Shown piece after piece: positions 3,289 to 64,000 of a DNA stretch of 64,000 nt; the stretch's first letter is position 1; every line of letters starts with the position of its first letter. A program made the translations under genes and the position numbers. The notes under the pieces are model-generated. The model did not search any database. It saw only the letters and a program-made list of their open reading frames with translations, and was not told where the DNA came from. Source of the DNA: Chryseobacterium indologenes (lineage in GTDB: Bacteria; Bacteroidota; Bacteroidia; Flavobacteriales; Weeksellaceae); assembly GCA_016025055.1 (NCBI GenBank), contig CP065590.1, positions 1,364,001 to 1,428,000 on the forward strand. Reading direction: 5' to 3'.

Positions 3289-3530
3289 GCACTGAGACGT
3301 TAAAAAATGTAATGATTATTTAAAAATAAACGCTAGAAACAGCAACACATGCACATGTAGAAATGGCATGAAGAGTTATCAGTATAATGAAGAGCACCTT
3401 CACCATCTGTCGAATAAAAATTCAAATTTGTAATGTGATTTCCCTTTTCTTTAAACATTTATTTAAAATTTAAAACAAAAATTCAAGAAGGGAGATAAGA
3501 AAGATATAAACATTTTTTCCGGAAGATCCG

Positions 3531-3600
3531 GCTTATCTATTGTAGCACCTTGCTTGTTTTTGCAGGTTGCTATCCCCTCTGGAGATTCTTGATAATTATT
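3531..3600 (-). ncRNA. SAM (S-box-like) riboswitch, compact form
   Basis: Read leftward, the RNA has the S-box core: P1 TTATC/GATAA, the J1/2 segment AAGA, a short P2 hairpin (ATCTCC, loop AGA, GGGGAT), and the hallmark P3 TAGCAACC...GGTGCTA closed by TGC/GCA around an A-rich loop. P2 is much shorter than in the classical SAM-I element and has no room for the usual kink-turn and pseudoknot loop. A promoter-like box sits just upstream, so the aptamer would begin at the very 5' end of the transcript. The leader between aptamer and start codon is about 300 nt. I see no U-rich terminator after it, so translational control or a more distant switch is likely. Confidence 0.72.
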
Positions 3601-3611: not shown

Positions 3612-3718
3612 TAATTATTTCGTAAATAAAAAAATTTTTGACTTATTTTTTTGATTTTCTAAATCTTATCGTAACAAATTGACTTTTTATTCGTCTAACT
3701 AAGCAGTAGTAAAACATT

Positions 3719-5935
3719 ATGAAAAAAACTATATTCGCTTTATCACTTGTAAGTTCTGTGTTTGTTTTTGCACAGGAAAAAAGCAATAATCAACCAAAAG
3801 AAAAACAAATTGACGGAGTTGTCATCACTAAAACTAAAAAAGCCGTTGAACAAAAAGCTGATCGTACCATTTTCGATTTTTCTGAACAGCCTCAGCTTAA
3901 TAACGGAAATGTTCTGGAAGGGATTAAAAAACTTCCAGGTCTCGTAGCCACAGATATTGCAGGAATGATGTATCAGGGTAAAATGCTTGAAGTTTATCTC
4001 AACGGAAGACCTTTGAACATCACCTCTAATGAACTGAATTCTTTTCTTGAAAGCATGCCTGCCAATTCTATAGAGAGAATTGAAGTGGTAACGCAGCCGG
4101 GAGCAGAATTTCCTGCGACATCGGGAGGAGCCATTATGAATATTATTACGAATAAAAATGCTAATAAATATCTAAGCGCAACCTATTCCGGGAATTATAC
4201 CTTCACCAATTACAATAAGTACAGAAGCAGAACCACCAACTCGGTAAATTTGAATGCCAGAAATAAATATTTCGGATGGCAGCTTAATGTGGGGCAAAAT
4301 TATCGTGAAAGTATGATGAACAGCCAGCAGGATGTTTTATTAAACAGTAATACAGATCGATTCGCGCGAGGGTATTTTGCAAAATCCGGATTAACTTTCG
4401 ATCTTGGGCAGGATAAGTTATTATTAAACTATGATATTTACCATAATAATAATGACAACTATACTGCAAGTAACGGGCTTGGAGATATTTATTACAAACC
4501 TACCGATGCATTCCGGGAAGCACAATTTGAATCTTCCGATGCTGCAAGAAGTAATACATTGAGACAGGAAGCGGTAGTAACCTATCAAAAGCGTTTTGCC
4601 GAGAAGTCCCAAAAACTTGATTTTCAATTTGGGTTTACTAAAGCGGATAGTAAGTTTTCTCAGGATAATTTCTACCGAAAAGGCAACTTTACAGATAATG
4701 GTCAGGCATTTGCAAATCCGGGACTTAATGATATTCTCAACAATAAGTCGGATATGAGGGTGGCTAATTTCAAAGTTGATTATGCCCAGCCCATCAAATT
4801 GCTGGACGGAGGAAAAGTAAGCGCCGGAGGCTTGTATGAAAGACAGGATTATAATACGGAAAGTAAAGGCCTTACAAACCTTGAATATCACAGACAAACG
4901 GCCTCCACTTATCTTGAATTCCAGGCTAAACTGAAAAAGTTTGATTTCACGTTAGGGGCAAGAGCTGAAAATTATGACATTTATGGAATTACCAGAAAGG
5001 ATAGTTTGGGAACTGTTGTTCAAAAAGATCTGACACCATTTAAGAAGTTTAAACTGTTTCCTAATGCAAGTATTCAGTACAACCTGATGAACCAGGTATA
5101 TATTGCGGCCAATTATAACAGAAAAATCAATCTGCCGAGTATTTCTGCCCTTAACCCGAATAACACCACATTCTCCGGGCCGAATACACAGATCAACGGT
5201 AATCCGAATCTTCAGCCGACCATTTTTGATAATTACGAATTGAAAATTTCGGCTTTTGATTATGCCTTCATCGGATACAGCGTAAGTTCGGCAAGCAATC
5301 AGGTAGCACAGATCATCAGAAAAAACGGTAAGAACCTCTACAATGAGCAGATCAACATCTCTTCTATGAAAATTCATAATTTCAATATTGGGCTTCCTGT
5401 TCCTTTCCAGATTTTCACGAAGTCGCTGGGTGAGATCATGAAATCAAACTTCAATCCTGACAAAATGAATTTCATGTACCTTTACGCAGGCTACCAGAAG
5501 CATGACATCGATAACCTCAACAATAAAGGATTCTGGATTTTCAACGTGATGACACAGCTGATTCTTCCAAAGGACATCAAGCTGACCGCAAATTACAGCT
5601 ACCTTACTCCCAAAGCAGGATATTTTTACTTTACCGCAGAGAAACCATTCAATAATAATTTAGATATTACCCTGACGAAAAAGTTTATGAACAATCGCCT
5701 TACAGTCTCGGTTTTTGCGAATGATATTTTCAATGGCCAGGTAATGCAGGTTCGTTCCAATCCGCCTTTAGGAGAAAGTGTAATGCTTAGGACAAAATAT
5801 GATTCAAGGAACTTTGGGATTTCCATCAACTATAAAATTCCTACTAAAAACAAGTTGGCTAAAGAGGATGCCAATATCTTAAACCAAACTAAAAAAGAAG
5901 ATAACGGAGGAGTAATGCAACAGCAGGGGCAATAA
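3719..5935 (+). CDS. Outer-membrane beta-barrel family protein (TonB-receptor-like)
   Basis: The 738-residue protein starts with a signal peptide (MKKTIFALSLVSSVFVFAQ). A plug-like region follows (about 30-145), with SIERIEVVTQPGAEFPATSG and IMNIITNK, which is the TonB-receptor plug ending. The C-terminal domain (about 350-735) resembles the large outer-membrane barrel domain common in Bacteroidota. The C terminus is Gln-rich and does not end in an aromatic residue. There is no N-terminal carboxypeptidase-regulatory domain. It is divergent from the S-box-controlled receptor and has its own upstream region. Substrate is unknown; these proteins are often annotated simply as outer membrane beta-barrel protein. 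Confidence 0.85.
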   Translation: MKKTIFALSLVSSVFVFAQEKSNNQPKEKQIDGVVITKTKKAVEQKADRTIFDFSEQPQLNNGNVLEGIKKLPGLVATDIAGMMYQGKMLEVYLNGRPLNITSNELNSFLESMPANSIERIEVVTQPGAEFPATSGGAIMNIITNKNANKYLSATYSGNYTFTNYNKYRSRTTNSVNLNARNKYFGWQLNVGQNYRESMMNSQQDVLLNSNTDRFARGYFAKSGLTFDLGQDKLLLNYDIYHNNNDNYTASNGLGDIYYKPTDAFREAQFESSDAARSNTLRQEAVVTYQKRFAEKSQKLDFQFGFTKADSKFSQDNFYRKGNFTDNGQAFANPGLNDILNNKSDMRVANFKVDYAQPIKLLDGGKVSAGGLYERQDYNTESKGLTNLEYHRQTASTYLEFQAKLKKFDFTLGARAENYDIYGITRKDSLGTVVQKDLTPFKKFKLFPNASIQYNLMNQVYIAANYNRKINLPSISALNPNNTTFSGPNTQINGNPNLQPTIFDNYELKISAFDYAFIGYSVSSASNQVAQIIRKNGKNLYNEQINISSMKIHNFNIGLPVPFQIFTKSLGEIMKSNFNPDKMNFMYLYAGYQKHDIDNLNNKGFWIFNVMTQLILPKDIKLTANYSYLTPKAGYFYFTAEKPFNNNLDITLTKKFMNNRLTVSVFANDIFNGQVMQVRSNPPLGESVMLRTKYDSRNFGISINYKIPTKNKLAKEDANILNQTKKEDNGGVMQQQGQ

Positions 5936-12051: not shown

Positions 12052-12111
12052 TCCTAATTATTTAAATACACTTTAGGAATGGCTATCATTGTACAATAGA
12101 ATGTACAGCAA

Positions 12112-12200
12112 AAGTCACCTACTTTTCCCTACGCTGGTATGATCCAGATCAGGTTCAAAGGGTAAAGTCTCAGTCTGTTGATAACAGACACCCCTAAAGT
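12112..12200 (-). ncRNA. TPP riboswitch (THI element)
   Basis: Read leftward, the sequence has the conserved TPP aptamer blocks: AGGGGTGTC, CTGAGA, TACCCTTTGAACCTGATCTG (the THI-box core) and the distal GTAGGGAAAAGT. It precedes thiS and should lower expression of the whole thiamin operon when TPP is abundant. No U-rich terminator hairpin is evident between aptamer and thiS, so translational control is likely. Confidence 0.97.
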
Positions 12201-12206
12201 ATGGGA

Positions 12207-24351: not shown

Positions 24352-25619
24352 TTAGTTGATCACGTCAAATCTTGCATATTCTGCAATTTTCTTTGGAAGC
24401 TTAATTCCTTCCTCCGTCTGATTGTTTTCAAGCAATGCAGCCATGATTCTCGGTAATGCCATGGCAGAACCGTTCAAGGTATGAACCAGCTGAGATTTCC
24501 CATCAGCTTTGTAACGGCACTTCAGCCTGTTGGCCTGGAAAGTTTCAAAATTGGAAACAGAACTTACTTCCAGCCACATTTCCTGAGCAGCACTCCATAC
24601 TTCAAAATCATAAGTCATTGCTGATGCAAAACCTGTATCTCCGCCACAAAGTCTCAATACTCTGAAGGGAAGTTCAAGATCTGTAAGAATTTCTTTGATA
24701 TGCTCTACCATTTCTTCCAGAACAGCATAAGAATTTTCCGGTTTTTCGATCCTTACAATTTCTACCTTTTCAAACTGATGAAGACGGTTTAATCCTCTTA
24801 CGTGGGCACCGTAGCTTCCCGCTTCCCTTCTGTAACACTGAGAGAATGCCGTATTTTTAATAGGAAGGTCTTTTTCATCCAGCAAAACATCACGGTAAAG
24901 GTTGGTTACAGGAACTTCTGCAGTAGGGATCAGGTATAATTTATCTTCGTTGATATAATACATCTGACCTTCTTTGTCAGGCAATTGACCGGTACCAAAT
25001 CCGGATGCCTCATTCACAACGTGAGGAGGATTTACTTCTGTATACCCTTTATCAACATTTTTATCAAGGAAATACTGCACCAAGGCTCTTTGTAATCTTG
25101 CTCCTTTCCCCAAGTAAACAGGGAAACCGGCTCCTGCAATTTTTACCCCTAATTCAAAATCGATAAGGTTGTACTTTTTTGCCAGTTCCCAGTGAGGAAT
25201 TGCTCCTTCACCAAGCCCTTCTACGGTATGAGACTGGAAAATGATTTCATTGTCATCAGCTGAAGCACCGCTTTTTACCAATTCATTAGGAATATTAGGA
25301 AGCTGATACAGAATATCAAGCAAAGCAGTTTCTTTTACCTCCAACTGAGATTTCAATTCTGAACTCGACTCTTTATATTGTGCTGTTTTAGATTTTGCCG
25401 ATTCCGCTTCTTCTTTCTTTCCTTCCTTCATCAAAAGTCCGATTTCTTTGGAGATTTTGTTGATCTCGGAAAGCTGGGAATCTAATTCAAACTGGATTCT
25501 TTTTCTTTCATCGTCAGCAGCGATAGCCTCGTCTACCAACTCAAGATTCTTGAATTGTCTTTTTTAAGACCTTCTAAAACGCGTTCCTTATTGTCGCGTA
25601 AAAAATTGACTTGTAACAT
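24352..25619 (-). CDS. serS: Serine-tRNA ligase SerS, frameshifted as read
   Basis: SerS charges tRNA-Ser. The long frame (24352-25539) holds the coiled-coil arm and the class II catalytic core, with TEVNPPHVVNEAS, the motif 2 region FSQCYRREAGSYG and the motif 3 region NGSAMALPRIMAALLENNQ. The true start is the ATG at 25617-25619 (MLQVNFLRDNKERVLEGLKK). The first 20 or so codons are in another frame, and a T6 run at 25560-25565 (A6 on the coding strand) needs one more base to join them, giving 422 residues. Because serS is essential, a sequencing error is much the likeliest cause. Confidence 0.94.
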
Positions 25620-25646
25620 TTTATTTAGATGTTAAATATTAGATGT

Positions 25647-25665
25647 TTAGCTTAAAATAAGCTAA
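25647..25665. repeat. Short inverted repeat between serS and the lipoprotein gene
   Basis: TTAGCTTA and TAAGCTAA flank a 3-nt spacer. There is no clear T-run after it on either strand, so it may or may not be a terminator. Confidence 0.35.
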
Positions 25666-25684
25666 CAATTGTACAAATTTAAAA

Positions 25685-26203
25685 TTATTTTGTGATAGTA
25701 AAGGTATTTATTGAAGTTGGGGCATCAGCATTTTTAGAAAATATTTCTGTTCCGTCGTATAATACCTTGGAAACCTGGAACAGTGTGGGCGTATTACGAT
25801 ATTGAACTTCCAGTATTCCTGTAACGTTATCATTTACATTCGTACTTTTTGTAAAGGTAATCTGCATTCTGGAAAAGTATGAATTGCCTGTTCCCGGATT
25901 ATCAGGGCTTATAGAATCCATTCTTCTTCTTTTCGCTCCTGCCAGATATTCCATATAAAACAAAGAATCCGCGGTCATCCGTAGCGGAATTGTTACCGGA
26001 GAAATATCTCTGGTTCCAAAAATATCATTGACAGCATATCCGGTATAGGATCCCGGCTTTTTTTGATTCAGAAGATCCTGTCCGGCAGCGTTTTTCATAT
26101 AGATATTAAGTACCTGATCTATTCTCTGCAGAGAATCATCATCACTTTTACAACTTACAAGTGCAAAGATCGCAACAAGTATACCTACAAAATATTTCAT
26201 CAT
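25685..26203 (-). CDS. Hypothetical lipoprotein
   Basis: The 172-residue protein starts with a lipoprotein signal (MMKYFVGILVAIFALVSC) followed by KSDDD, a Bacteroidota surface-export-like acidic stretch. The rest contains beta-rich segments such as VTGILEVQYRN. It looks like a DUF-type secreted protein of Flavobacteriia; I do not recognise a specific family. It lies alone between asnB and serS. Confidence 0.75.
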   Translation of the reverse strand: MMKYFVGILVAIFALVSCKSDDDSLQRIDQVLNIYMKNAAGQDLLNQKKPGSYTGYAVNDIFGTRDISPVTIPLRMTADSLFYMEYLAGAKRRRMDSISPDNPGTGNSYFSRMQITFTKSTNVNDNVTGILEVQYRNTPTLFQVSKVLYDGTEIFSKNADAPTSINTFTITK

Positions 26204-44328: not shown

Positions 44329-45972
44329 ATGCTATCAAAAATAAACCCTATACAAACCAATAGCTGGAAAGCCCTTGATGAACATTTCGGAGGAAATGAC
44401 TTTGACTTAAGAACTCTTTTCCAGTATAATCCTAACCGTTTTACAGAATTTTCTTTGCAAAAGGATAACTATCTTTTTGATTATTCTAAAAACTTAATCG
44501 ATTCAAGAACTAAAGACCTTTTATTGAATCTGGCCGAAGAATGCCAGTTAAAAGACGCTATTTCCAAAATGTTCTCCGGTGACAAAATCAACGAGACAGA
44601 AGGAAGAGCTGTTCTGCATACAGCATTAAGAGACTTCTCAGATCGCGAAATTTTTGTGGACGGAGAAAATATCAAACCACAGATCAAAAGAGTTCTTGAC
44701 CATATGAAATCTTTTTCCGGGAAAATTATTTCCGGAGAACATACAGGTTTCAGCGGAAAAGAGATCACAGATGTCGTTAATATCGGTATCGGAGGGTCAG
44801 ACCTTGGTCCTGTAATGGTTTGCTCCGCTTTAAAGCATTTCAAAACAAGATTAAACGTTCATTTTGTTTCCAATGTAGATGGAAACCATATCGCCGAAGT
44901 GGTAAAAGGCCTAAATCCTGAAACTACTTTATTTATCATTGCTTCCAAAACCTTTACGACCCAGGAAACGATGACCAATGCGAATTCGGCAAAGGACTGG
45001 TTCCTGAAAGCCGGAAAACAGGAAGATGTGGCAAAGCACTTTGTTGCCTTATCTACTAATATTGAAGAAGTGAAAAAGTTCGGAATCGCAGAAGAAAACA
45101 TATTTGAGTTCTGGGATTGGGTAGGCGGAAGATATTCGTTGTGGAGTGCCATTGGATTAAGCATAGTACTTTCCGTAGGATATGAAAATTTCGAACAGCT
45201 TTTAAGAGGTGCTTTTGATACCGATCAGCACTTCCAGACAGCTGATTTCTCTGAAAACATCCCTGTACTAATGGGACTGTTAGGAATCTGGTATCGCAAT
45301 TTCTACGCAGCGACAACCTATGCAATCCTGCCTTATTCTCAATACCTCGACAGGTTTGCAGCTTATCTTCAGCAGGGAGATATGGAAAGTAACGGAAAAT
45401 GTGTGGACAGAAACGGCGAATTTGTAGAATATGAAACCGGACCTATTATCTGGGGAGAACCGGGTACCAATGGTCAGCACGCATTTTATCAACTGATCCA
45501 CCAGGGCACAGAACTCATTCCTGCAGACTTTATTGCCTATACACAAAGTCCGAATAAAGTTTCTGACCACCAGGATAAATTATTAGCTAACTTTTTCGCG
45601 CAAACTGAAGCACTTGCCTTCGGAAAGCTGGAAGAAGAGGTTGAAGAAGAGCTTAGAAATACAGGAAAATCTGACGAAGAAATTGAAAGGTTGGTCAACT
45701 TCAAAGTTTTCCACGGAAATACTCCAACCAACTCCATATTATTCAAAGAATTAACTCCTTTTTCATTAGGTCAGCTTATCGCTTTGTATGAACACAAAAT
45801 TTTCGTTCAGGGGGTGATCTGGAATATTTTCAGCTTTGACCAGTTTGGTGTGGAGTTAGGAAAAGTATTAGCCAACAAAATCCTTCCTGAACTCGAGAAT
45901 AATGAAGCAGTAAGCTCTCATGACAGTTCTACCAATGGTTTGATCAATTACTACAAAGAATTTAAGAAGTAA
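44329..45972 (+). CDS. pgi: Glucose-6-phosphate isomerase Pgi
   Basis: Pgi interconverts glucose-6-phosphate and fructose-6-phosphate. The 547-residue protein has the SIS-domain pattern [38 protein letters not shown] and the signature [18 protein letters not shown] near the C terminus. It is followed by folD after 41 bp. Confidence 0.97.
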
Positions 45973-46013
45973 AGTAAAAGTAAATAAATCTAATAAAGTA
46001 ATAAAAAGTAAAA

Positions 46014-46899
46014 ATGGCAGAAATTCTTGACGGACTGAAAGTATCCAAAGAAATAAAAGCAGAGATCAAGGTTGAAGTGGAAAAAATCCTTGAAAGCAAA
46101 AAGAAGAGCACCTCATTTGGTTGCTATTCTTGTTGGAAACAACGGGGCGAGTAAGGCTTATGTAAACGCTAAAGTAAAAGATTGCGAAGAAGTTGGTTTT
46201 CAGTCAAGCCTGATTAAATTCCCAAGCACAGTTTCAGAATCTGAGTTATTGGAAAAAATCGATGAGCTGAATAAGTCTAAAGCAGTAGACGGTTTTATCG
46301 TTCAGCTTCCTTTACCGGATCAGGTTGATCAGGAAAAAATCATCAATGCTATTGATCCCAGAAAAGATGTGGACGGTTTCCACCCTGAAAATTTCGGAAA
46401 AATGGCATTGGAAATGGATACATTCTTACCGGCTACTCCTTTCGGGATTTTAACATTATTAGAAAGATATAATATTGAAACCAAAGGGAAAGACTGTGTA
46501 ATTATCGGAAGAAGTAAAATTGTAGGGAGACCGATGAGCATCCTTATGGGAAGAAAAGATTTCCCGGGGAACTCTACTGTTACTCTTACCCACTCCTACA
46601 CCAAAGATATTGAAGAATACACTAAAAAAGCAGATATCGTTATCACGGCTTTAGGTGATCCTCATTTCTTAAAAGGAGATATGATAAAAGACGGAGCTGT
46701 CATCGTAGATGTAGGAATTACAAGAGTAGATGACGATTCTCCAAAAGGTTACCATCTTGCCGGTGACGTAGATTTTGACAGCTGTGCTGCTAAAGCAAGC
46801 TGGATCACCCCTGTACCGGGAGGAGTTGGCCCAATGACCAGAGCAATGTTGATGAAAAATACAATCATTGCATACAAAACGTCGGTTTATAACGACTAA
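46014..46899 (+). CDS. folD: Methylenetetrahydrofolate dehydrogenase/cyclohydrolase FolD, frameshifted as read
   Basis: FolD interconverts one-carbon folates using NADP+. The start at 46014 (MAEILDGLKVSKEI) is in one frame and the remainder (from about 46103) in another. An A5 run at 46098-46102 with one A fewer gives SKRRAPHLVAILVGNN, a normal FolD of 294 residues. Motifs are VDGFIVQLPLPDQ, DVDGFHPENFGKM, the nucleotide-binding GRSKIVGRPMSILM and ITPVPGGVGPMTRAML. FolD is hard to lose, so an assembly error is likely. Confidence 0.93.
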
Positions 46900-46906
46900 T
46901 TTTAAG

Positions 46907-47578: not shown

Positions 47579-48948
47579 ATGCAGAGAATTCGATACTCTA
47601 GATACCTGAAATCGATTATTATTTTGCTTGACCTGATGGTTATTGCATCTATTTTTATATTCTTTTTTATAAGCAGAAACGAAAGTTTAAAATACAGTGA
47701 AGAAACCTGGTACCAGAATGTTTTTTCTCTGATATTGTTATTTTTGTTCTGGGTGCTTTTAAGCGGCAGGACAAAAATATACAATATCGCCAGGAACCTT
47801 ACCTATACTTTATTCCTGGAAAGGCTTTTTACCCACTTCCTGTTTTTTATTCTCGGTGTCCTGCTTATAGGGAAAGTAAGCAAAAACGTTTTTTTTAATA
47901 CAGATATATATTGGCTGTCGTTTTATCTTCTGATCTGCATCTTTCTGACCAAATCGCTGATCTATTTTGCCATAAAATATTTCCGCTCACTTGGGATCAA
48001 CCACAGGAATGTCATGTTTTTAGGAGATAATAGTTCCACTGAAATTTTAAAGAGTATTTTTAAAAGCCGTAAAGACTACGGATACAGGATCTTTACCTAT
48101 GAAGGTTCGGAGTCTAACATCCACGAGTTGGTCAGTTTCTGGAAAAGAAACGGGATTCATACGTTGTTTATATCGACGGAAAACTCGTATAATGAGGAAC
48201 TGGAAAACCAGATTTTTAAGCTGGCTGAAGACAATAAGATTCACATTTCTTTGATACCAAGTATTACGCAGAATGATTTTTTCCTGTACGACCTTGGTTA
48301 TATTCAAACACAACCGGTGCTGAATCAGGCAAGATATCCTCTGGATTATTATTCCAACTTCCTGATGAAAAGAACGTTTGACATATTTTTTCTGTCCTGG
48401 TATTGCTTTTTATTTGTTCGTGGGCATTTCCTATTATCGCTATTTTAATCAAAACAACTTCAAAAGGGCCGGTTTTCTTCCTTCAAAAGAGATACGGTTT
48501 CCATGAAGAAGTTTTTAAGTGCATTAAATTCAGGACAATGGTCATCAATGATGAATCTGCCACTAAAACAACCATGGCCAATGATTCAAGAATAACCAGA
48601 GTTGGCAGGTTTTTAAGAAAAACAAGCCTTGATGAGCTGCCACAGTTCTTGAACGTACTAAAAGGAGAAATGTCTGTGGTGGGACCCCGTCCTCATATGT
48701 TGTCTGTAGATAATTATTACAAGCCAAAAATCGGAAGATACAGCTTAAGAAGTATGGTAAATCCCGGTATTACAGGCCTGGCACAAGTGAGTGGGTTGCG
48801 TGGCGACTATGGAGATGTAGAGGTAGATATGAAAAAAAGAGTTCTTGCCGATTCGTTTTATGTAAGAAACTGGAGCTTTGCTCTGGATCTTGTCATTATT
48901 CTAAAAACTATACTATTAGTTATCGGTGGAGATAAAAATGCAAAATAA
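47579..48948 (+). CDS. Polyprenyl sugar-phosphate transferase (WcaJ-like), frameshifted as read
   Basis: The enzyme transfers a sugar phosphate to undecaprenyl phosphate, the first step of a surface polysaccharide repeat unit. The N-terminal part (47579 on) has four helices and a Rossmann-like domain; the C-terminal part (to 48948) has the bacterial sugar transferase core with KFRTMV, RKTSLDELPQFLNVLKGEMS and VGPRPH, plus PGITGLAQV. A T6 run at 48386-48391 needs one more T to join the frames (FDIFFSVLVLLFICSW), giving 456 residues. The frameshift is probably an error. Other polysaccharide genes of this window lie at 26-30 kb. Confidence 0.85.
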
Positions 48949-54944: not shown

Positions 54945-57496
54945 TTATCGTACGATCAATTTCTCAACCTGAGTTTTATCTCCCTGTTGGATATGAACCA
55001 TATATACTCCTTTCTGGAATCCGTTGGTGGAAATTGCTTTCTTAGAACCGGCTTCCCTTGAATCGGTAAGTACTAATTTCCCTGACATATCAAACATTCT
55101 TATTTTAACTTCTTTTGAGGATTTATCGATATTTCCTACGAAGAATTCGTCATAAGTAGGGTTCGGGAAAACAACAAATTTATGATCTAAAGTCTTAAGA
55201 TCTTGAGTTGCAAGTGTTCCGCATTCCGTCGGAACAGTGAAGTCCTGCACCTGATCGTTAAGGGCCGTACTACTTCCTGCAGAAGCATTTACGCCAAGAC
55301 CTCTCTTAGCAAAAGCAGCCCAGATCATACACTTGTCTCCGCCAGCATTTCCAAGAGCATCAGCTTGAAGAAGGCCATCTCTTCCATCAATAAATGACGG
55401 ATTACAGCTTTGTAATTTTAATCCATCTACTACTAATTGTAACACTTTAGCATTTCCGGAAGTATTGCTTGCTGTAACATCACTGTTGTATCCATATTTT
55501 TCTATATACTTCCAGGTAAGATCCCAGAGCATAGTAGCCCATACAAAACCTATAGAGTGGGATTCATTCATTGAATTGGTACTTCCATAGGTGAAACTAT
55601 TGACTCCAAAATCAGGAGAGTATTTTGCAGGTCTGATCCCAACACCTGTAGTGGGCTCCCCGTTGGTATAGGTTCCCATACCTCTGGCTAAAGCAGACGT
55701 ATCACCTGGTCTTGTTGTAAGCATCAGGGCAAAATAATCTGACCAGCCTTCGCCCATCTGCTCTGCTGAATTTAGACAATCATACCCTTGACCTGTTAAT
55801 CTATTTGAAATGCCATGTCCGTATTCATGGGCTACAATTCCATTATCTAAACTTGAATGTTTAAAACCGCTATAATCGAAATCTAATGTGACATTCACTG
55901 CTCCTGCTGTGGCCTGCGCTACAAGATATTCTCCTTCAGCTTTTCCCATCATAAGAGAAGGGATCGTGATTCCTGTAACCGCATTGTCCCTTCCCATAGA
56001 AATAGGATCGGCATTAACAGGATCATAGAGAATAGCTCCGATTGCTCCTGCTTCCTGCATTTTTTTACTTTACTAGCAAAGCTGCAAGTTCCTCTTTTAG
56101 CAAGACCTATCTTCCCAGCCATACTTCCTGCAGCAATTGCAGTACAGGCATCGTCAGGTATTGCCACCATGATATTTCCTGTTACGGGAGGACCTCCCAA
56201 TAAGAGAGAACCGAATGCCGCTCCGCCGGTAACTACTTTAGGCCTGCCTACCATAGATGAGGGGGAATTGTATTGATATCTGGAAATAGGATCTGCTGCA
56301 CTTTGAGCTCTATCCCAGAGATACATTTGCATTCTCGGTGCTGCAAGATAGGTCTGACCGGAAATAACGACTTCATATCCTGAACTGAAATTGGCATTAT
56401 TTAAACCACTTCCGTCAAATGCTTCCGCTCTTACGGCATCACCCTGCATTCCTCCTTTTCCGAAATTGTTGGTCTGATAATTCCTTGCTGGTTCGTTAAA
56501 CCCGAATTTATAGAATATATCATGCATTTTATTATTCATATAAAATAATTGGGTTACTGCCGCATCTCTGTAGGTTAGTGGGTTTTCATATCTTCCGTCT
56601 GCAAAAGGAAAATTAAAGCTAAGACCACTTCCTCCATCTGGCGAATATCCTGCAGTATTGGTATTATTCTGGTCTGAATAGGCATAAACATTATTCCCTC
56701 TTGTATTCGTATAGTTATTGGTACCATCCGAATGCCATCCTTCCGGAGATGCTGCTATATCCCATGGGTTATTTACTATCGAACGAGCTCCGAATGTAGG
56801 TGCTTCTACAGGCAACGCAAAAACATTGTAGGATGCATTAGTAGGTGCAAGCCAATTCATGAATGTATTCTGATCAGCATTTGAATCTCTTTTTACCAAT
56901 TCAACGTTTTGCAGATGTGAGTCTGTGTTACCTTCAAATTTACAGCTGATTGTCATATTGCTTTTGCTCAATACTTCACCAGTCTCTGCATCAGCAACAA
57001 CATGCCAGATATCTGACGAGCTTTTATCTGATACAAACAATTCTTTTGATAAAACATGTACTCCATTCTTTTCAAAATAGACATTAGGAAGATAGTCTAT
57101 ATTTGCAATATTCTCTAATCCAAGTCTTTGTTTCAATGCATCTTCGGAAAATCTCTCCTGTACCTTTTTTTGTAGAGCGACTGTTATATTTTTGCTAAAA
57201 TCATTATTTTCAGAGATGATCTTATCTCCCTTAATGATTACTTTTCCCAGTGCATTATAAACTCTCAAGCCATCATACGTTTGTTGCACATTAACAACAT
57301 TGGCTCCTAAACTTTCGGATGGATCTTCATTCAAAATGATAAATCCACTTTTATTATTAGCATTATTTTTTTGGATTAATTGTCCCTTGTTTTGATAATA
57401 GTCCTGAATTAATTTTGTTGAATTCTGAGCATTAAGTTGTGTAAAGCAAAAGAACACCGCCACAGACATTGGCAATAAAGATAGTTTTTTATTCAT
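54945..57496 (-). CDS. M36 metalloprotease with PA domain and type IX sorting tail, frameshifted as read
   Basis: This secreted zinc protease has a signal peptide (MNKKLSLLPMSVAVFF), a propeptide, the M36 catalytic domain with HEYGHGISNRLTG (about residue 554) and an inserted protease-associated domain (about 445-520, NIMVAIPDDACTAIAAGSMA region). The C terminus is a type IX secretion sorting domain starting near FPNPTYDEFF. Frames 55949-57496 and 54945-56060 meet at a T7 run (56060-56066) that needs one more base, giving 850 residues. It is a paralogue of the next gene to the right. Confidence 0.9.
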
Positions 57497-57566
57497 ACAA
57501 TCACTTTTTATCAAACAAATCTATAAATTATTTATAATATTTGCTTCTTTTTTCTGAAATATTACA

Positions 57567-60402: not shown

Positions 60403-61101
60403 TTAATTAGGGTCACGGCTATATTTTTTTAATTCATTTCTTAGGGTACATCTCTTTTTTTTAAAGGATTTGTCTTCATAATTTTTTTTAAAATCTGTTC
60501 CGGAAAATGTCCGTACAGGGCTTCCACGCTGCACCTGTATCTGAAGTGTCCAGGTTTCTCTCATTTTCTTTTCCAATTGCTGAACGTGCATTGCCATCAC
60601 TTTTTCTTTCAGCCGGACCACAGAAAGTTTTTTATTCTCCAACTGTGATCGTGAATCCTGTACAAATACAGATTGTCTGCTTGGAATATGGGTAGCCCTC
60701 ACTGCGGTATTGACTTTGTTTACATTCTGCCCTCCACTACCCTGGCTTCTTGCCGTCTGGAACTTAATATCTCTTTCCCTGAAATCTATCTTTTCAGGAT
60801 TTTCCAATTCAAAGACCCCAATAAACCAGTTGCTTCTTTTGTGCAGTTTTCTGAAGGTACTCTTCCCTACCCAACAAATGCTTCCCACCCAGTTTTTTAA
60901 AAAAAGGGATAGTTCTTCTCCTTTTAAGAGAAGAGTTACGGATTTCAACGTCAGGTTTTCATCGCCGTTTTCACGATGGATGATTTCGTAGTCTATCTTA
61001 TTTTGTATTGCTTCTTCAAGAAAAGTTTTCAGCACTTTGGCAACAACCCACTGACATTCTAAAGGTCCTCTTCCGGAAGTTATCTGTATTAATTTTTCCA
61101 T
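60403..61101 (-). CDS. prfH: Peptide chain release factor H PrfH
   Basis: PrfH is a class I release factor homologue that keeps the peptide-releasing GGQ loop (QGSGGQNVN, GGQ about 123-125) but lacks the codon-reading domain. The 232-residue protein also has TSGRGPLECQWVV and the basic C-terminal tail. In other bacteria it is encoded with RtcB and rescues ribosomes with damaged 16S rRNA. Here it lies 1 bp after the nucleotidyltransferase-like gene in the same orientation. The gene and the upstream gene are leftward. Confidence 0.93.
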   Translation of the reverse strand: MEKLIQITSGRGPLECQWVVAKVLKTFLEEAIQNKIDYEIIHRENGDENLTLKSVTLLLKGEELSLFLKNWVGSICWVGKSTFRKLHKRSNWFIGVFELENPEKIDFRERDIKFQTARSQGSGGQNVNKVNTAVRATHIPSRQSVFVQDSRSQLENKKLSVVRLKEKVMAMHVQQLEKKMRETWTLQIQVQRGSPVRTFSGTDFKKNYEDKSFKKKRCTLRNELKKYSRDPN

Positions 61102-61102
61102 G

Positions 61103-61647
61103 TTATTTTGGTATTTCGCTTAATCTGGGATGTCCTAAAGGATCAATTCCCTTTTGTAATAAATCTTTTGCAGCCATTACTGCCCAACATCTGTCACTGG
61201 AATGGATATTTCTGTAAAAGGAAAGCAGCAGCTCAGGTTCCACGATTGTGAACCCATTCGATTCTACCGTTTCCAGGTCATTTCTTTCAAAAAAATCGAT
61301 GGTAATTCTGTGAAATTTTTCGTTTTCCAGTTCTACTGTTTTCTCATACCTGCGGAAGTTTTCCTGACTTGGTAAATGATCGTAGCGGGTCCATACTTTC
61401 TGAAATCCTTCATTCTGCAGGATCATTACAACCTCAGCTACGTTTTTCTTTTTACAAAAACATCGATATCCTTGTGATCGTGAGCATGCTTATATTCTGT
61501 GTGCCCAGGTTCTGACATAAAATGCCAGGCCCATCCTCCTGATATGATAACTTTATTTTTAAGTTTATTTAAAATTTCAAGACCCAGCAGGATTCTGAAT
61601 TCCGGCCATAGTTCTCCATATCTTTTTATGTTATGTGGTGCTCCCAT
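61103..61647 (-). CDS. Nucleotidyltransferase-fold protein, frameshifted as read
   Basis: The restored protein (about 181 residues) has the minimal NTase pattern: GGWAWHF (about 37-43), a downstream His, then the paired metal-binding Asp in KDIDVFVK (Asp 60 and 62), and a third acidic strand ITIDFFERND. This resembles the small antibiotic NTases such as ANT(2'') or LinB in pattern, but the context is RNA repair. Two frames (61438-61647 and 61103-61426) meet at a T5 run (61449-61453); one more base would join them. Substrate unknown. Confidence 0.78.
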
Positions 61648-61738
61648 TGCTTTGTTTTTTTAAGTGATAAGGCAGGCATCTGATTATTTCCTGATTATCA
61701 TAATCTGTTTATCGTCTTTTTTGTATTGTTATTAAAAC

Positions 61739-61763
61739 CTAACAGGTTTTTGAAACCTGTTAG
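61739..61763. repeat. Hairpin repeat CTAACAGGTTT / AAACCTGTTAG
   Basis: A perfect 11-bp stem with a 3-nt loop between the nucleotidyltransferase and rtcB genes. It resembles small dispersed hairpins of this group, but copies elsewhere in the genome cannot be seen here. Confidence 0.6.
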
Positions 61764-61796
61764 ATTTAGCCCCGATTGCAGCATTTGTCTGAGCTC

Positions 61797-61820
61797 ATTT
61801 TTCTTTTGCAAAAGAAAAAT
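61797..61820. repeat. 24-bp perfect palindrome
   Basis: ATTTTTCTTTTG is followed by its exact reverse complement CAAAAGAAAAAT. A GC-richer stretch (GCGAGTGCGGAAAGCGGGATT, 61822 on, quoted to 20 bases as GCGAGTGCGGAAAGCGGGAT) follows, so this and the previous hairpin may be parts of one composite repeat. Confidence 0.6.
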
Positions 61821-61863
61821 AGCGAGTGCGGAAAGCGGGATTAAGCTCCTGAATAGCCAAAAG

Positions 61864-63255
61864 CTATCGGTCCATTCTTACAATTCTCGGTTGAAATGTT
61901 CCCAGAATATCTACCAGCTCGCTTTGTGCGTTCATCACTTCATGAATGTTTTTATAGGCCATCGGTGCTTCTTCTGCATTTCCACCCATTAAGGTAACGT
62001 TCTTGAGTTTCAACTCTTTTTTGATATCGTTTTGGGTGAAAAGACTTCTGCATTCTCCTCTTGAATGGGCTCTTCCCGCACCGTGTGAAGCAGAATTCAA
62101 AGACTCCGGGTTTCCTTTTCCGCGGACGATAAATCCTTTTTCGGTCATTGATCCGGGAATCATTCCCAATTCATTTTCGTTGGCAGGAGTGGCTCCTTTT
62201 CTGTGAACAATAACTTCTTTTCCGTTGTGAATTTCCTTCCATGCAAAATTATGATGGTTCTCAATCCTGGCTTTCACTCTACCGCCGACGGCTTTCACCA
62301 ATCTTCTGTGGATGTCGTCATGGCAGGCGGAAGCATAGTCTCCGGCGAGGTTCATGGCAGTCCAGTATTCCAATCCGAGGTGTGTACTGAGGTCAAGCCA
62401 GGCAAACTGTTGTGCTTCTTTGGGTAGAGGGCATTGGTCTGCAGCTACTCTTGAATAATACTGGGCAATCTCTGCTCCCAATCCTCTGGAACCGCTATGA
62501 GAAAGTATTCCCAGATATTTTCCTTTGGGAAGGCCGATCTGGTCTTCTTCTTCAGTGATTTCCACTTCCCCGAATTCTACGAAGTGATTTCCACCGCCGG
62601 AAGATCCCATTTGCTTGATGGCTTTACCTTTTAATCTTCTTAAAACCGGAATGAGATCAAAAGTATCCCTTTCGAAAATCTCATGGTCTATGTGAGACTT
62701 ATGGGTCTCATACATTCCGAATTTTGTATGTTCTGCAAGGGCTTTTTCATATTTATCCCTTGCTCCGTTGAGATATGAAACCGGCGTATCCAAAATACTG
62801 AGGCTCATTCTGCAACCTATATCCATGCCTACTCCGTAAGGAATGACTGCATTTTCTACGGCAAGAACTCCTCCGATCGGAAGCCCATATCCGCTGTGGG
62901 CATCAGGCATTAAAGCGCCCTGTGTAGAAACCGGTAGTTTCAGTGCGGTGTACAGCTGGTTTTTTGCTTCTTCTGAAATATTGTTCCCAAAGATCTGAAA
63001 TGAGGCGCGCTGTGAATTCAGCTGTCTTTTTTCTGTCTTTTTTGAAGAAAGCAATGTTTCTGCGATCTGCCCGAAGGTTAAGTCTTTTTCAAAATTCTCC
63101 GGATTAATCAGGATTTCTTTTAAAAGAGATTTTACGTGATGAATATTTTTGGTTGCAAAATTTCTTTTCATGACTTCCAAAGCAACATTTACACTTTGAT
63201 TGTTCGGATAGCCTAGTTTTAATATATCTTTTCCTTTTAGTTTTAAATTTCCCAT
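61864..63255 (-). CDS. rtcB: RNA-splicing ligase RtcB
   Basis: RtcB joins RNA ends carrying 2',3'-cyclic phosphate or 3'-phosphate to 5'-OH, using GTP and Mn2+. The 463-residue protein has the metal-binding GVGMDIGCRMS (Cys about 148), LSHSGSRGLGAEIA, HHNFAWKE, HRKGATPA and the active-site His in SASHGAGRAHSR (about 390). It is somewhat longer than E. coli RtcB. Its neighbours, prfH and the nucleotidyltransferase, support a role in RNA repair. The subtype (RtcB1 or RtcB2) cannot be decided from motifs alone. Confidence 0.95.
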   Translation of the reverse strand: MGNLKLKGKDILKLGYPNNQSVNVALEVMKRNFATKNIHHVKSLLKEILINPENFEKDLTFGQIAETLLSSKKTEKRQLNSQRASFQIFGNNISEEAKNQLYTALKLPVSTQGALMPDAHSGYGLPIGGVLAVENAVIPYGVGMDIGCRMSLSILDTPVSYLNGARDKYEKALAEHTKFGMYETHKSHIDHEIFERDTFDLIPVLRRLKGKAIKQMGSSGGGNHFVEFGEVEITEEEDQIGLPKGKYLGILSHSGSRGLGAEIAQYYSRVAADQCPLPKEAQQFAWLDLSTHLGLEYWTAMNLAGDYASACHDDIHRRLVKAVGGRVKARIENHHNFAWKEIHNGKEVIVHRKGATPANENELGMIPGSMTEKGFIVRGKGNPESLNSASHGAGRAHSRGECRSLFTQNDIKKELKLKNVTLMGGNAEEAPMAYKNIHEVMNAQSELVDILGTFQPRIVRMDR

Positions 63256-63282
63256 TTTTTTGGTTTTAAATAATAGTCGGAC

Positions 63283-64000
63283 TTATACGTCCTGAAAGCA
63301 TTCTGCAATCTCTTTTGCAGAAAGTGCGCAGGTAAAATATTTCCCGCTTCTGATAAGATGTACATCTTCTTTTTGTGATCTCCACCGGTATGATTTACCA
63401 TAGATTTTTTTGTGGATAATCCCTACTGTTTTATGCTGCTGCAGACAAGCTTCCAGCTCTGCAATTTCTTTTTCCATCTCAAAGTCTACAGGCTTATAGT
63501 GGGTAATCATATTGGGTCTTATCCTTAAGGTAAACCTCCATGGCTCAGTAAATTCGTAGTATACTTCGTTGCATTTCCGATAAGGGCAGTATTCTTCGTA
63601 TTTCAGGAAATATTGTCTTTCCCTTGCTGTAAGTCCCAGTTTCGGATCATTCCAGGACCAGGAAGAGATCGTCTTGAGCTTTTGTTCTTTTTCGACATAT
63701 ATTCTCCTCCCGAATTTCCTTTTCTTTTTGAGAAACTGGCGGCTTTCGGAGTACATCCAGGTATTGATTTTCCTTAGAATTTCTTCAAAAAATTCTCCAT
63801 CTTTGGATCTCATGACGTCATCCCTGACGACAAAGAATCTTACAAATCCCCTTTGATAAGGACTATCTAAAGGAATCGGCGGAGTATTTCTCTTTATTTT
63901 CCAAAGTTCTTCACTACGTTTAAACTTTTTTCTGATCTGTTTTTCTACATCTTTTCTTTTTGTTCTTTTTCTGCTCCTCAGATTTCTTAAGCGAAGGGAC
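63283..64000 (-). CDS. Unknown basic protein, N-terminal part outside window
   Basis: The frame is open to the window edge, so the gene begins beyond 64000; about 238 residues are visible. The visible N-terminal part is strongly basic (many Arg and Lys, e.g. SRKRTKRKDVEKQIRKKF), followed by RGFVRFFVVRDDV, then SWSWNDPKLGLTARERQYF and a CPYRKCNEVYYEF Cys pair. It ends 27 bp before rtcB. I do not recognise a family. A role in RNA binding is suggested by charge and context only. Confidence 0.7.
   Translation of the reverse strand, partial: SLRLRNLRSRKRTKRKDVEKQIRKKFKRSEELWKIKRNTPPIPLDSPYQRGFVRFFVVRDDVMRSKDGEFFEEILRKINTWMYSESRQFLKKKRKFGRRIYVEKEQKLKTISSWSWNDPKLGLTARERQYFLKYEEYCPYRKCNEVYYEFTEPWRFTLRIRPNMITHYKPVDFEMEKEIAELEACLQQHKTVGIIHKKIYGKSYRWRSQKEDVHLIRSGKYFTCALSAKEIAECFQDV

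Follow-up and report, generated by a model that had tools for sequence, protein, structure and literature searches.

The gene set and its limits

The stretch of DNA analysed here, called the window throughout, comprises 64,000 nt of Chryseobacterium indologenes (CP065590.1, positions 1,364,001-1,428,000) and is part of a single-contig genome of 4.92 Mb, whose placement in Chryseobacterium is supported by the nearest named relatives of the proteins discussed below. At the end of the window, on the minus strand, lies a set of four genes that encode, in reading direction, a basic protein, the RNA ligase RtcB, a predicted nucleotidyltransferase (NTase) and peptide chain release factor H (PrfH or RFH). 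The set, which spans 60403-64020, is a further Bacteroidota example of an already described RtcB-PrfH module with accessory genes of published kinds.

The gene for the basic protein (63283-64020; L003:3284-4021 in the sequence fetched around the set) encodes 245 aa and starts 20 nt past the window edge. It is followed by rtcB (61864-63255), which encodes a long-form RtcB of 463 aa. The NTase gene appears in the list of open reading frames as two pieces in different frames, a 5' piece (61438-61647, 69 aa) with the motifs SGGWAW and KDIDVF and a 3' piece (61103-61426, 107 aa) with the third catalytic Asp in ITIDFF. The last gene, prfH (60403-61101), encodes 232 aa with a GGQ loop and without domain 1. 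A preliminary description of this DNA had reported four consecutive leftward genes; the order and strand stand, whereas the NTase gene is split between two frames and the basic gene begins outside the window. The suggestion that the set may continue further did not hold up when the sequence past 64000 was read, as the next upstream gene is on the opposite strand (L003:4371-5306, plus strand). With this divergent gene upstream, and with what we take to be an M36-type peptidase gene after prfH, the set ends at four genes.

The intergenic spacing is uneven, with 27 nt between the basic gene and rtcB, 216 nt between rtcB and the NTase gene, and 1 nt between the NTase gene and prfH. The long spacer (61648-61863, minus strand) holds a perfect and strong palindrome at 61739-61763, of which a pattern count found four exact copies in the genome. 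Its folding z-score is -2.28, 3 of 200 shuffles fold equally well, and a terminator scan did not flag it. The palindrome may attenuate or end transcription between rtcB and the NTase gene. A tandem array of about eight copies, with a period of about 224 bp, lies behind a full-length rtcB in another genome (L034, G003:C2:2862500-2871500, at about 3700-5261); its repeat unit consists of the rtcB 3' end and a downstream palindrome, and each unit ends in a palindrome that resembles the one in the window.

For comparisons within the genus we fetched the 29 best-scoring relatives with 1.5 kb flanks. All genes of the set, including both NTase pieces, are under purifying selection. The median ratio of nonsynonymous to synonymous substitution rates (dN/dS) is 0.021 for rtcB (29 pairs), 0.079 for prfH (26 pairs), 0.057 and 0.067 for the 5' and 3' pieces of the NTase gene (25 pairs each), and 0.141 for the basic gene, the latter from only 9 gap-free pairs; as the median dS exceeds 1, these ratios are rough.

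PrfH and RtcB

PrfH passes the curated family TIGR03072 with 206 bits (cut-off 166.65) and carries the motif GSGGQNVNK. The RF2 model aligns to it only from position 119 of 353, the pattern of a class-I release factor core without domain 1, and the nearest solved structure is 9mor, "Peptide chain release factor H" (residues 2-225, E 1.5e-97). Upstream of prfH on the same strand, with the NTase gene between, lies rtcB, whose product matches Pfam RtcB with 269.5 bits (cut-off 27). It contains the blocks SASHGAGR, GVGMDIGC, GNHF, HSGSRGLG and VHRKGAT, the last four of which align to the solved RtcB TTHA1785 and are presumably active-site blocks for metal binding and guanylylation. The preliminary description had recognized the ligase by SASHGAGR and the release factor by its GGQ loop, and the family matches bear out both assignments.

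The best PHROG for this RtcB is phrog_1075 (316 bits), and relatives that are 41-56% identical occur in 14 IMG/VR contigs; contigs are called viral here on the basis of their membership in IMG/VR. We read the ligase as a long lineage common to host and viral contigs. The genome encodes a second RtcB, 31% identical to that of the module. Across the genus, rtcB was found in 60 of the 60 Chryseobacterium genomes searched: in Chryseobacterium the ligase gene is a constant, and the accessory genes vary in their presence.

The nucleotidyltransferase

Neither NTase piece alone matches a Pfam family at E 1. Uninterrupted relatives are 83-93% identical to the 5' piece in their N-terminal part and 79-89% identical to the 3' piece in their C-terminal part. 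The gene lies between rtcB and prfH in 25 of the 29 genus relatives, where a single open frame spans both pieces (the script found no start codon in L029), and it is present in 5 of 11 additional, hand-chosen genomes of the genus, mostly more divergent ones. The 120 homologues listed out of 629 range, where named, over Chryseobacterium, Flavobacterium, Aquimarina, Tenacibaculum and Kordia. Across 42 sequences the SGG, the DxD and the third Asp are invariant. With these motifs and the modelled fold, the predicted protein has the Pol-beta superfamily fold. In this respect the NTase-fold protein of the preliminary description is upheld, although it is encoded in two pieces in different frames and not in a single open reading frame.

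The split is likelier to be an assembly error than a sign of a pseudogene, because other conserved genes of the window, serS included, are split likewise. In the one serS that is over its family cut-off (24352-25690), the first residues are in another frame, a stop falls within the match, and the match aligns only from model position 16. Frame changes within genes also occur at 45960-46900, 47579-48948 and 54945-57514, which we take to be folD, a sugar transferase gene and an M36 peptidase gene. The completeness of the genome is 97.24, against at least 98 in 55 of the 59 other genomes of the genus, and both NTase pieces have kept a dN/dS near 0.06. It is therefore unlikely that the NTase gene is a decaying pseudogene and that the strain is left with a set of three genes, even though the gene is uninterrupted in the relatives that have it and the TPR gene found behind prfH elsewhere is missing here as well (a TPR query, run without a positive control, returned nothing from this genome at E 10).

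All 21 NTase relatives searched match PF10706 (aminoglycoside-2''-adenylyltransferase) at E 1 or better; in the one relative for which scores are shown, this is the sole Pfam family over its cut-off (22.1 against a gathering score of 21), with the match confined to residues 24-84. At E 1, none of these 21 relatives matches RlaP (PF10127), and the NTase has no sequence match in the PDB. Among its 50 listed Foldseek matches (E 2.7e-4 to 2.3e-3), the top ones are LnuA and ANT(2'')-Ia, with 15-17% identity in the structural alignments, and RNA-acting MenT toxins are also present, at 10-15% identity.

The basic protein

The basic protein has an isoelectric point of 9.8. Two profile searches found 397 and 381 homologues; neither the 176-aa part within the window nor a Flavobacterium relative matches Pfam. 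The predicted structure (pLDDT 83.6, pTM 0.62) combines a long helix at the N-terminus with a beta-rich core, and it has no convincing match among solved structures. In 24 of the 29 genus relatives the gene is full length and in one frame. A 27.5 kb IMG/VR contig (L213:1933-7383) carries a gene of this family, an RlaP NTase gene and a long-form rtcB on one strand, and prfH was not seen in the stretch read. Since the basic gene is here found with rtcB but without prfH, the basic protein may be tied more closely to RtcB than to PrfH.

Co-occurrence of the four genes

In a sample of 247 Bacteroidota genomes, the window's own included, PrfH was found over its cut-off in 17, the NTase in 5 and the basic protein in 7. 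The 5 NTase-positive genomes are all among the 17 with PrfH (Fisher 8e-7), with the NTase gene beside prfH in each, and so are the 7 genomes with the basic protein (Fisher 2e-9); these tests ignore phylogeny. The association of the NTase and the basic protein with prfH is real and beyond chance, but it is not new. In the 14 loci fetched from these 17 genomes (G000, G002 and G009 were read elsewhere), rtcB adjoins prfH without exception.

The picture is the same when one starts from the NTase. Among the best 80 of 139 genome stretches with an NTase relative, rtcB is present in 80 and prfH in 79, and the one stretch without prfH (L136) ends about 200 bases past the NTase gene. Homologues of the NTase and the basic protein mostly apart from rtcB and prfH would, by the preliminary description, count against its reading; in cellular genomes they do not lie apart in this way, whereas in viral contigs they do in part. 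NTase relatives that are 36-57% identical occur at 13 IMG/VR loci (11 distinct; L197-L209, on contigs of 23-619 kb), and all 13 lack prfH within 5 kb; nor was prfH seen in the stretch of L213 read around the basic gene. An RtcB-like gene lies near the NTase relative in three of the 13 loci (L203, L207 and L208), and in L207 the NTase gene is located close before it.

The wider neighbourhood was compared in 110 loci, the window's own among them; in at least 6 pairs of these loci RtcB is identical. Most of these loci were picked by their NTase, so that the presence of the NTase in 91 of 110 is not a frequency. A TPR gene is found in 100 loci, a zinc-ribbon gene in 17, and a DEDDh exonuclease gene nearby in 5 (4 distinct); the operon in the window is without all three.

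A DEDDh exonuclease and a second repair-type cluster

In one genome (G115) a DEDDh exonuclease gene (PF00929) adjoins the prfH operon, and this prompted a test for co-occurrence. In the phylum sample, 13 of the 17 genomes with prfH and none of the 230 without it gave a strong exonuclease match (E <1e-36, a threshold set afterwards); for an order sample, which overlaps the first, the corresponding numbers are 17 of 26 and 1 of 112. These counts ignore kinship. With the limit relaxed to E 0.001, the exonuclease is found in 14 of 17 prfH-positive and 18 of 230 prfH-negative genomes of the phylum, and in 20 of 26 and 1 of 112, respectively, for the order. The same tendency is seen within a single family (f2) of the phylum sample, with strong matches in 9 of 11 prfH-positive and 0 of 15 prfH-negative genomes. 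In Aquimarina, Tenacibaculum and a single genome of the genus g2, the exonuclease gene adjoins the prfH operon or lies close to it.

Where the exonuclease is not linked to prfH, its surroundings were read in 11 genomes, with the family names checked against Pfam on one member each. In all 4 Chryseobacterium genomes among them it is accompanied by RNase H-like and cREC-type genes, joined in 2, the window's own genome included, by a T4 Rnl2-type ligase gene. Among the 11, a phosphoesterase family is a neighbour in 5 and 2 have an RLIG1-like gene; three Flavobacterium-type loci (L191-L193) have none of these neighbours. The window's own genome has, judging by its gene content, a second RNA-repair-type cluster (G000:C1:2574836-2577351; L186:3837-6352), made up of RNase H-like, cREC receiver, T4 Rnl2-type ligase and DEDDh exonuclease genes.

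The main-text passages of PMC6514570 that were searched list no exonuclease gene with RFH. Neither the constancy of rtcB in Chryseobacterium nor the co-occurrence of the exonuclease came up in the literature listed, with no dedicated search made on either. The co-occurrence of the exonuclease with prfH and the presence of NTase relatives in large viral contigs are possibly new.

Proposed function

By analogy with the characterized E. coli pair, we consider it likely that the set is the Bacteroidota form of the RtcB-PrfH module for ribosome rescue and 16S rRNA repair. A colicin E3 cut in E. coli 16S rRNA, between A1493 and G1494, leaves a cyclic phosphate and a 5'-OH; the cut ribosomes are freed of their peptide by PrfH, and the break is re-sealed by RtcB2 (PMC9223846). 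The preliminary description had named this pairing on damaged 16S rRNA, and the PrfH of the window is a clear member of the family. In Chryseobacterium, a ribonuclease toxin would cut 16S rRNA at the decoding centre and the ribosome would stall. Like its E. coli homologue, PrfH would enter the A site and use its GGQ loop to hydrolyse the peptidyl-tRNA, and the subunits would part; RtcB, again like its homologue, would use GTP to join the 2',3'-cyclic-phosphate and 5'-OH ends. Position, charge, fold and conserved catalytic residues suggest roles for the two other proteins. The basic protein probably binds RNA or the ribosome, perhaps the 30S subunit, and would work with RtcB, upstream of whose gene its own usually lies. 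The NTase most likely acts on a nucleic-acid end; by nucleotide transfer to damaged RNA ends it would form a second, dispensable line.

Several observations weigh against this interpretation. The RtcB of the window scores 143.2 bits against TIGR03073 (release_rtcB, RtcB2), the curated family linked to PrfH, under the cut-off of 271.8; its equivalence to E. coli RtcB2 thus rests on the catalytic blocks and the context, and we class it as working like RtcB2 and not as a member of that family. The NTase gene is missing between rtcB and prfH in 4 of the 29 genus relatives (L010, L014, L024 and L027), while for the basic gene 2 of these relatives have no copy, 1 has a remnant and 2 have a copy divided between two frames. 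In G003, the genome with the tandem array, rtcB and the basic gene are kept, and the 9 kb read (L034) contains no match to prfH or the NTase. Pol-beta-fold NTases add to hydroxyls. RtcB, by contrast, needs a 3'-phosphate or cyclic phosphate (PMC9223846), so that a 3'-OH end made by the NTase would not serve it directly as a substrate. The preliminary description had suggested that the added proteins perhaps trim or extend RNA ends or recruit the damaged ribosome; the first of these possible roles meets this chemical difficulty. Finally, overexpressed rtcB2 alone restored resistance in E. coli without prfH (PMC9223846). The same paper reports extra stops, for which its authors suggested secondary degradation, and this leaves an opening for an NTase that rebuilds ends; PMC6514570 proposes repair of trimmed ends and contact with rRNA for the accessory genes.

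Alternatively, the NTase could be a small-molecule enzyme of the ANT(2'')/LnuA type that acts on ribosome-binding drugs and is placed here because both functions answer ribosome stress. The PF10706 match and the leading place of LnuA and ANT(2'')-Ia among the fold matches fit this explanation, as does a review's statement that overexpression of prfH raises azithromycin resistance in Pseudomonas (PMC8327144). However, the E-values of those 50 matches are only 2.7e-4 to 2.3e-3, the VIA entries are tied with the RNA-acting MenT toxins, the gene is linked to rtcB and prfH, and relatives occur in viral contigs, one of them close before an RtcB-like gene (L207). We regard a drug-modifying enzyme as quite unlikely. 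Equally improbable, in our estimate, is that the module chiefly repairs cut tRNAs and not 16S rRNA. Although tRNA has been proposed as one substrate (PMC6514570), and cleaved tRNA is a substrate of the other RtcB (PMC9223846), the E. coli RtcB2-PrfH pair protects against colicin E3 but not against colicins E5 and D, which cut tRNA (PMC9223846), and the window's own genome has the second repair-type cluster with its T4 Rnl2-type ligase. Still less probable is a MenT-type, toxin-like or regulatory tRNA nucleotidyltransferase that blocks tRNA ends and pauses translation while RtcB works, as the MenT fold matches are just 10-15% identical, the neighbours are repair genes (an antitoxin partner was not searched for), and this kind of gene has been grouped with repair (PMC6514570).

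An extension of 16S rRNA repair, which we consider very improbable, is that the module rebuilds the cut as well as sealing it. Once 16S rRNA is cut between A1493 and G1494, its 5' fragment would end in two conserved adenines, A1492 and A1493. A 3'-5' exonuclease would nibble at this end, and the NTase, whose ANT-type fold may use ATP, would restore the adenines before the break is closed. Where ends are unsuitable for RtcB, the second cluster could supply partners in its DEDDh exonuclease and Rnl2-type ligase.

With sealing and rescue by RtcB and PrfH, our preferred interpretation, this culturable genus would carry its ribosome-repair ligase as a constant component of the genome and not as a sporadic acquisition. 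Natural variation within the genus in which accessory genes are present is a means to test their contribution, and the NTase and long RtcB in viral contigs suggest that repair parts are common to phages and their hosts.

Other features of the window

The window also contains a thiamine pyrophosphate (TPP) riboswitch at 12109-12205 and a SAM-I/IV riboswitch at 3503-3600, both on the minus strand.

Comparison with known systems

Like the RtcB2-PrfH pair of E. coli ATCC25922 (PMC9223846), the set in the window has an RtcB-family ligase gene followed by a gene for a PrfH family member. It differs in its longer RtcB, which falls below the TIGR03073 cut-off, in the NTase gene between rtcB and prfH, in the basic gene upstream, and in the presence of rtcB in every genome of the genus searched.

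The Pol-beta superfamily NTase beside an RNA ligase recalls RlaP (PF10127), an RNA-ligase-associated NTase of repair systems that jumbo phages also carry, together with RtcB and other NTases (PMC7824862); unlike RlaP, the NTase family of the window has no PF10127 match (21 relatives, E 1). It shares its fold and catalytic motifs with the antibiotic nucleotidyltransferases ANT(2'')-Ia and LnuA, but the identity in the structural alignments is 15-17%, no PDB sequence matches, and the neighbourhood here is one of RNA repair.

Burroughs and Aravind (2019, PMC6514570) described extended RFH-RtcB neighbourhoods, abbreviated "RFR" in a figure, that include TPR, Pol-beta NTase, zinc-ribbon and charged-helical genes. 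The preliminary description was correct in seeing an expanded form of the RtcB-PrfH pair, but this form had already been published there. The gene kinds are the same, and the basic protein may correspond to their charged protein; the copy in the window differs in that it is without the TPR and zinc-ribbon genes and has its NTase gene split.

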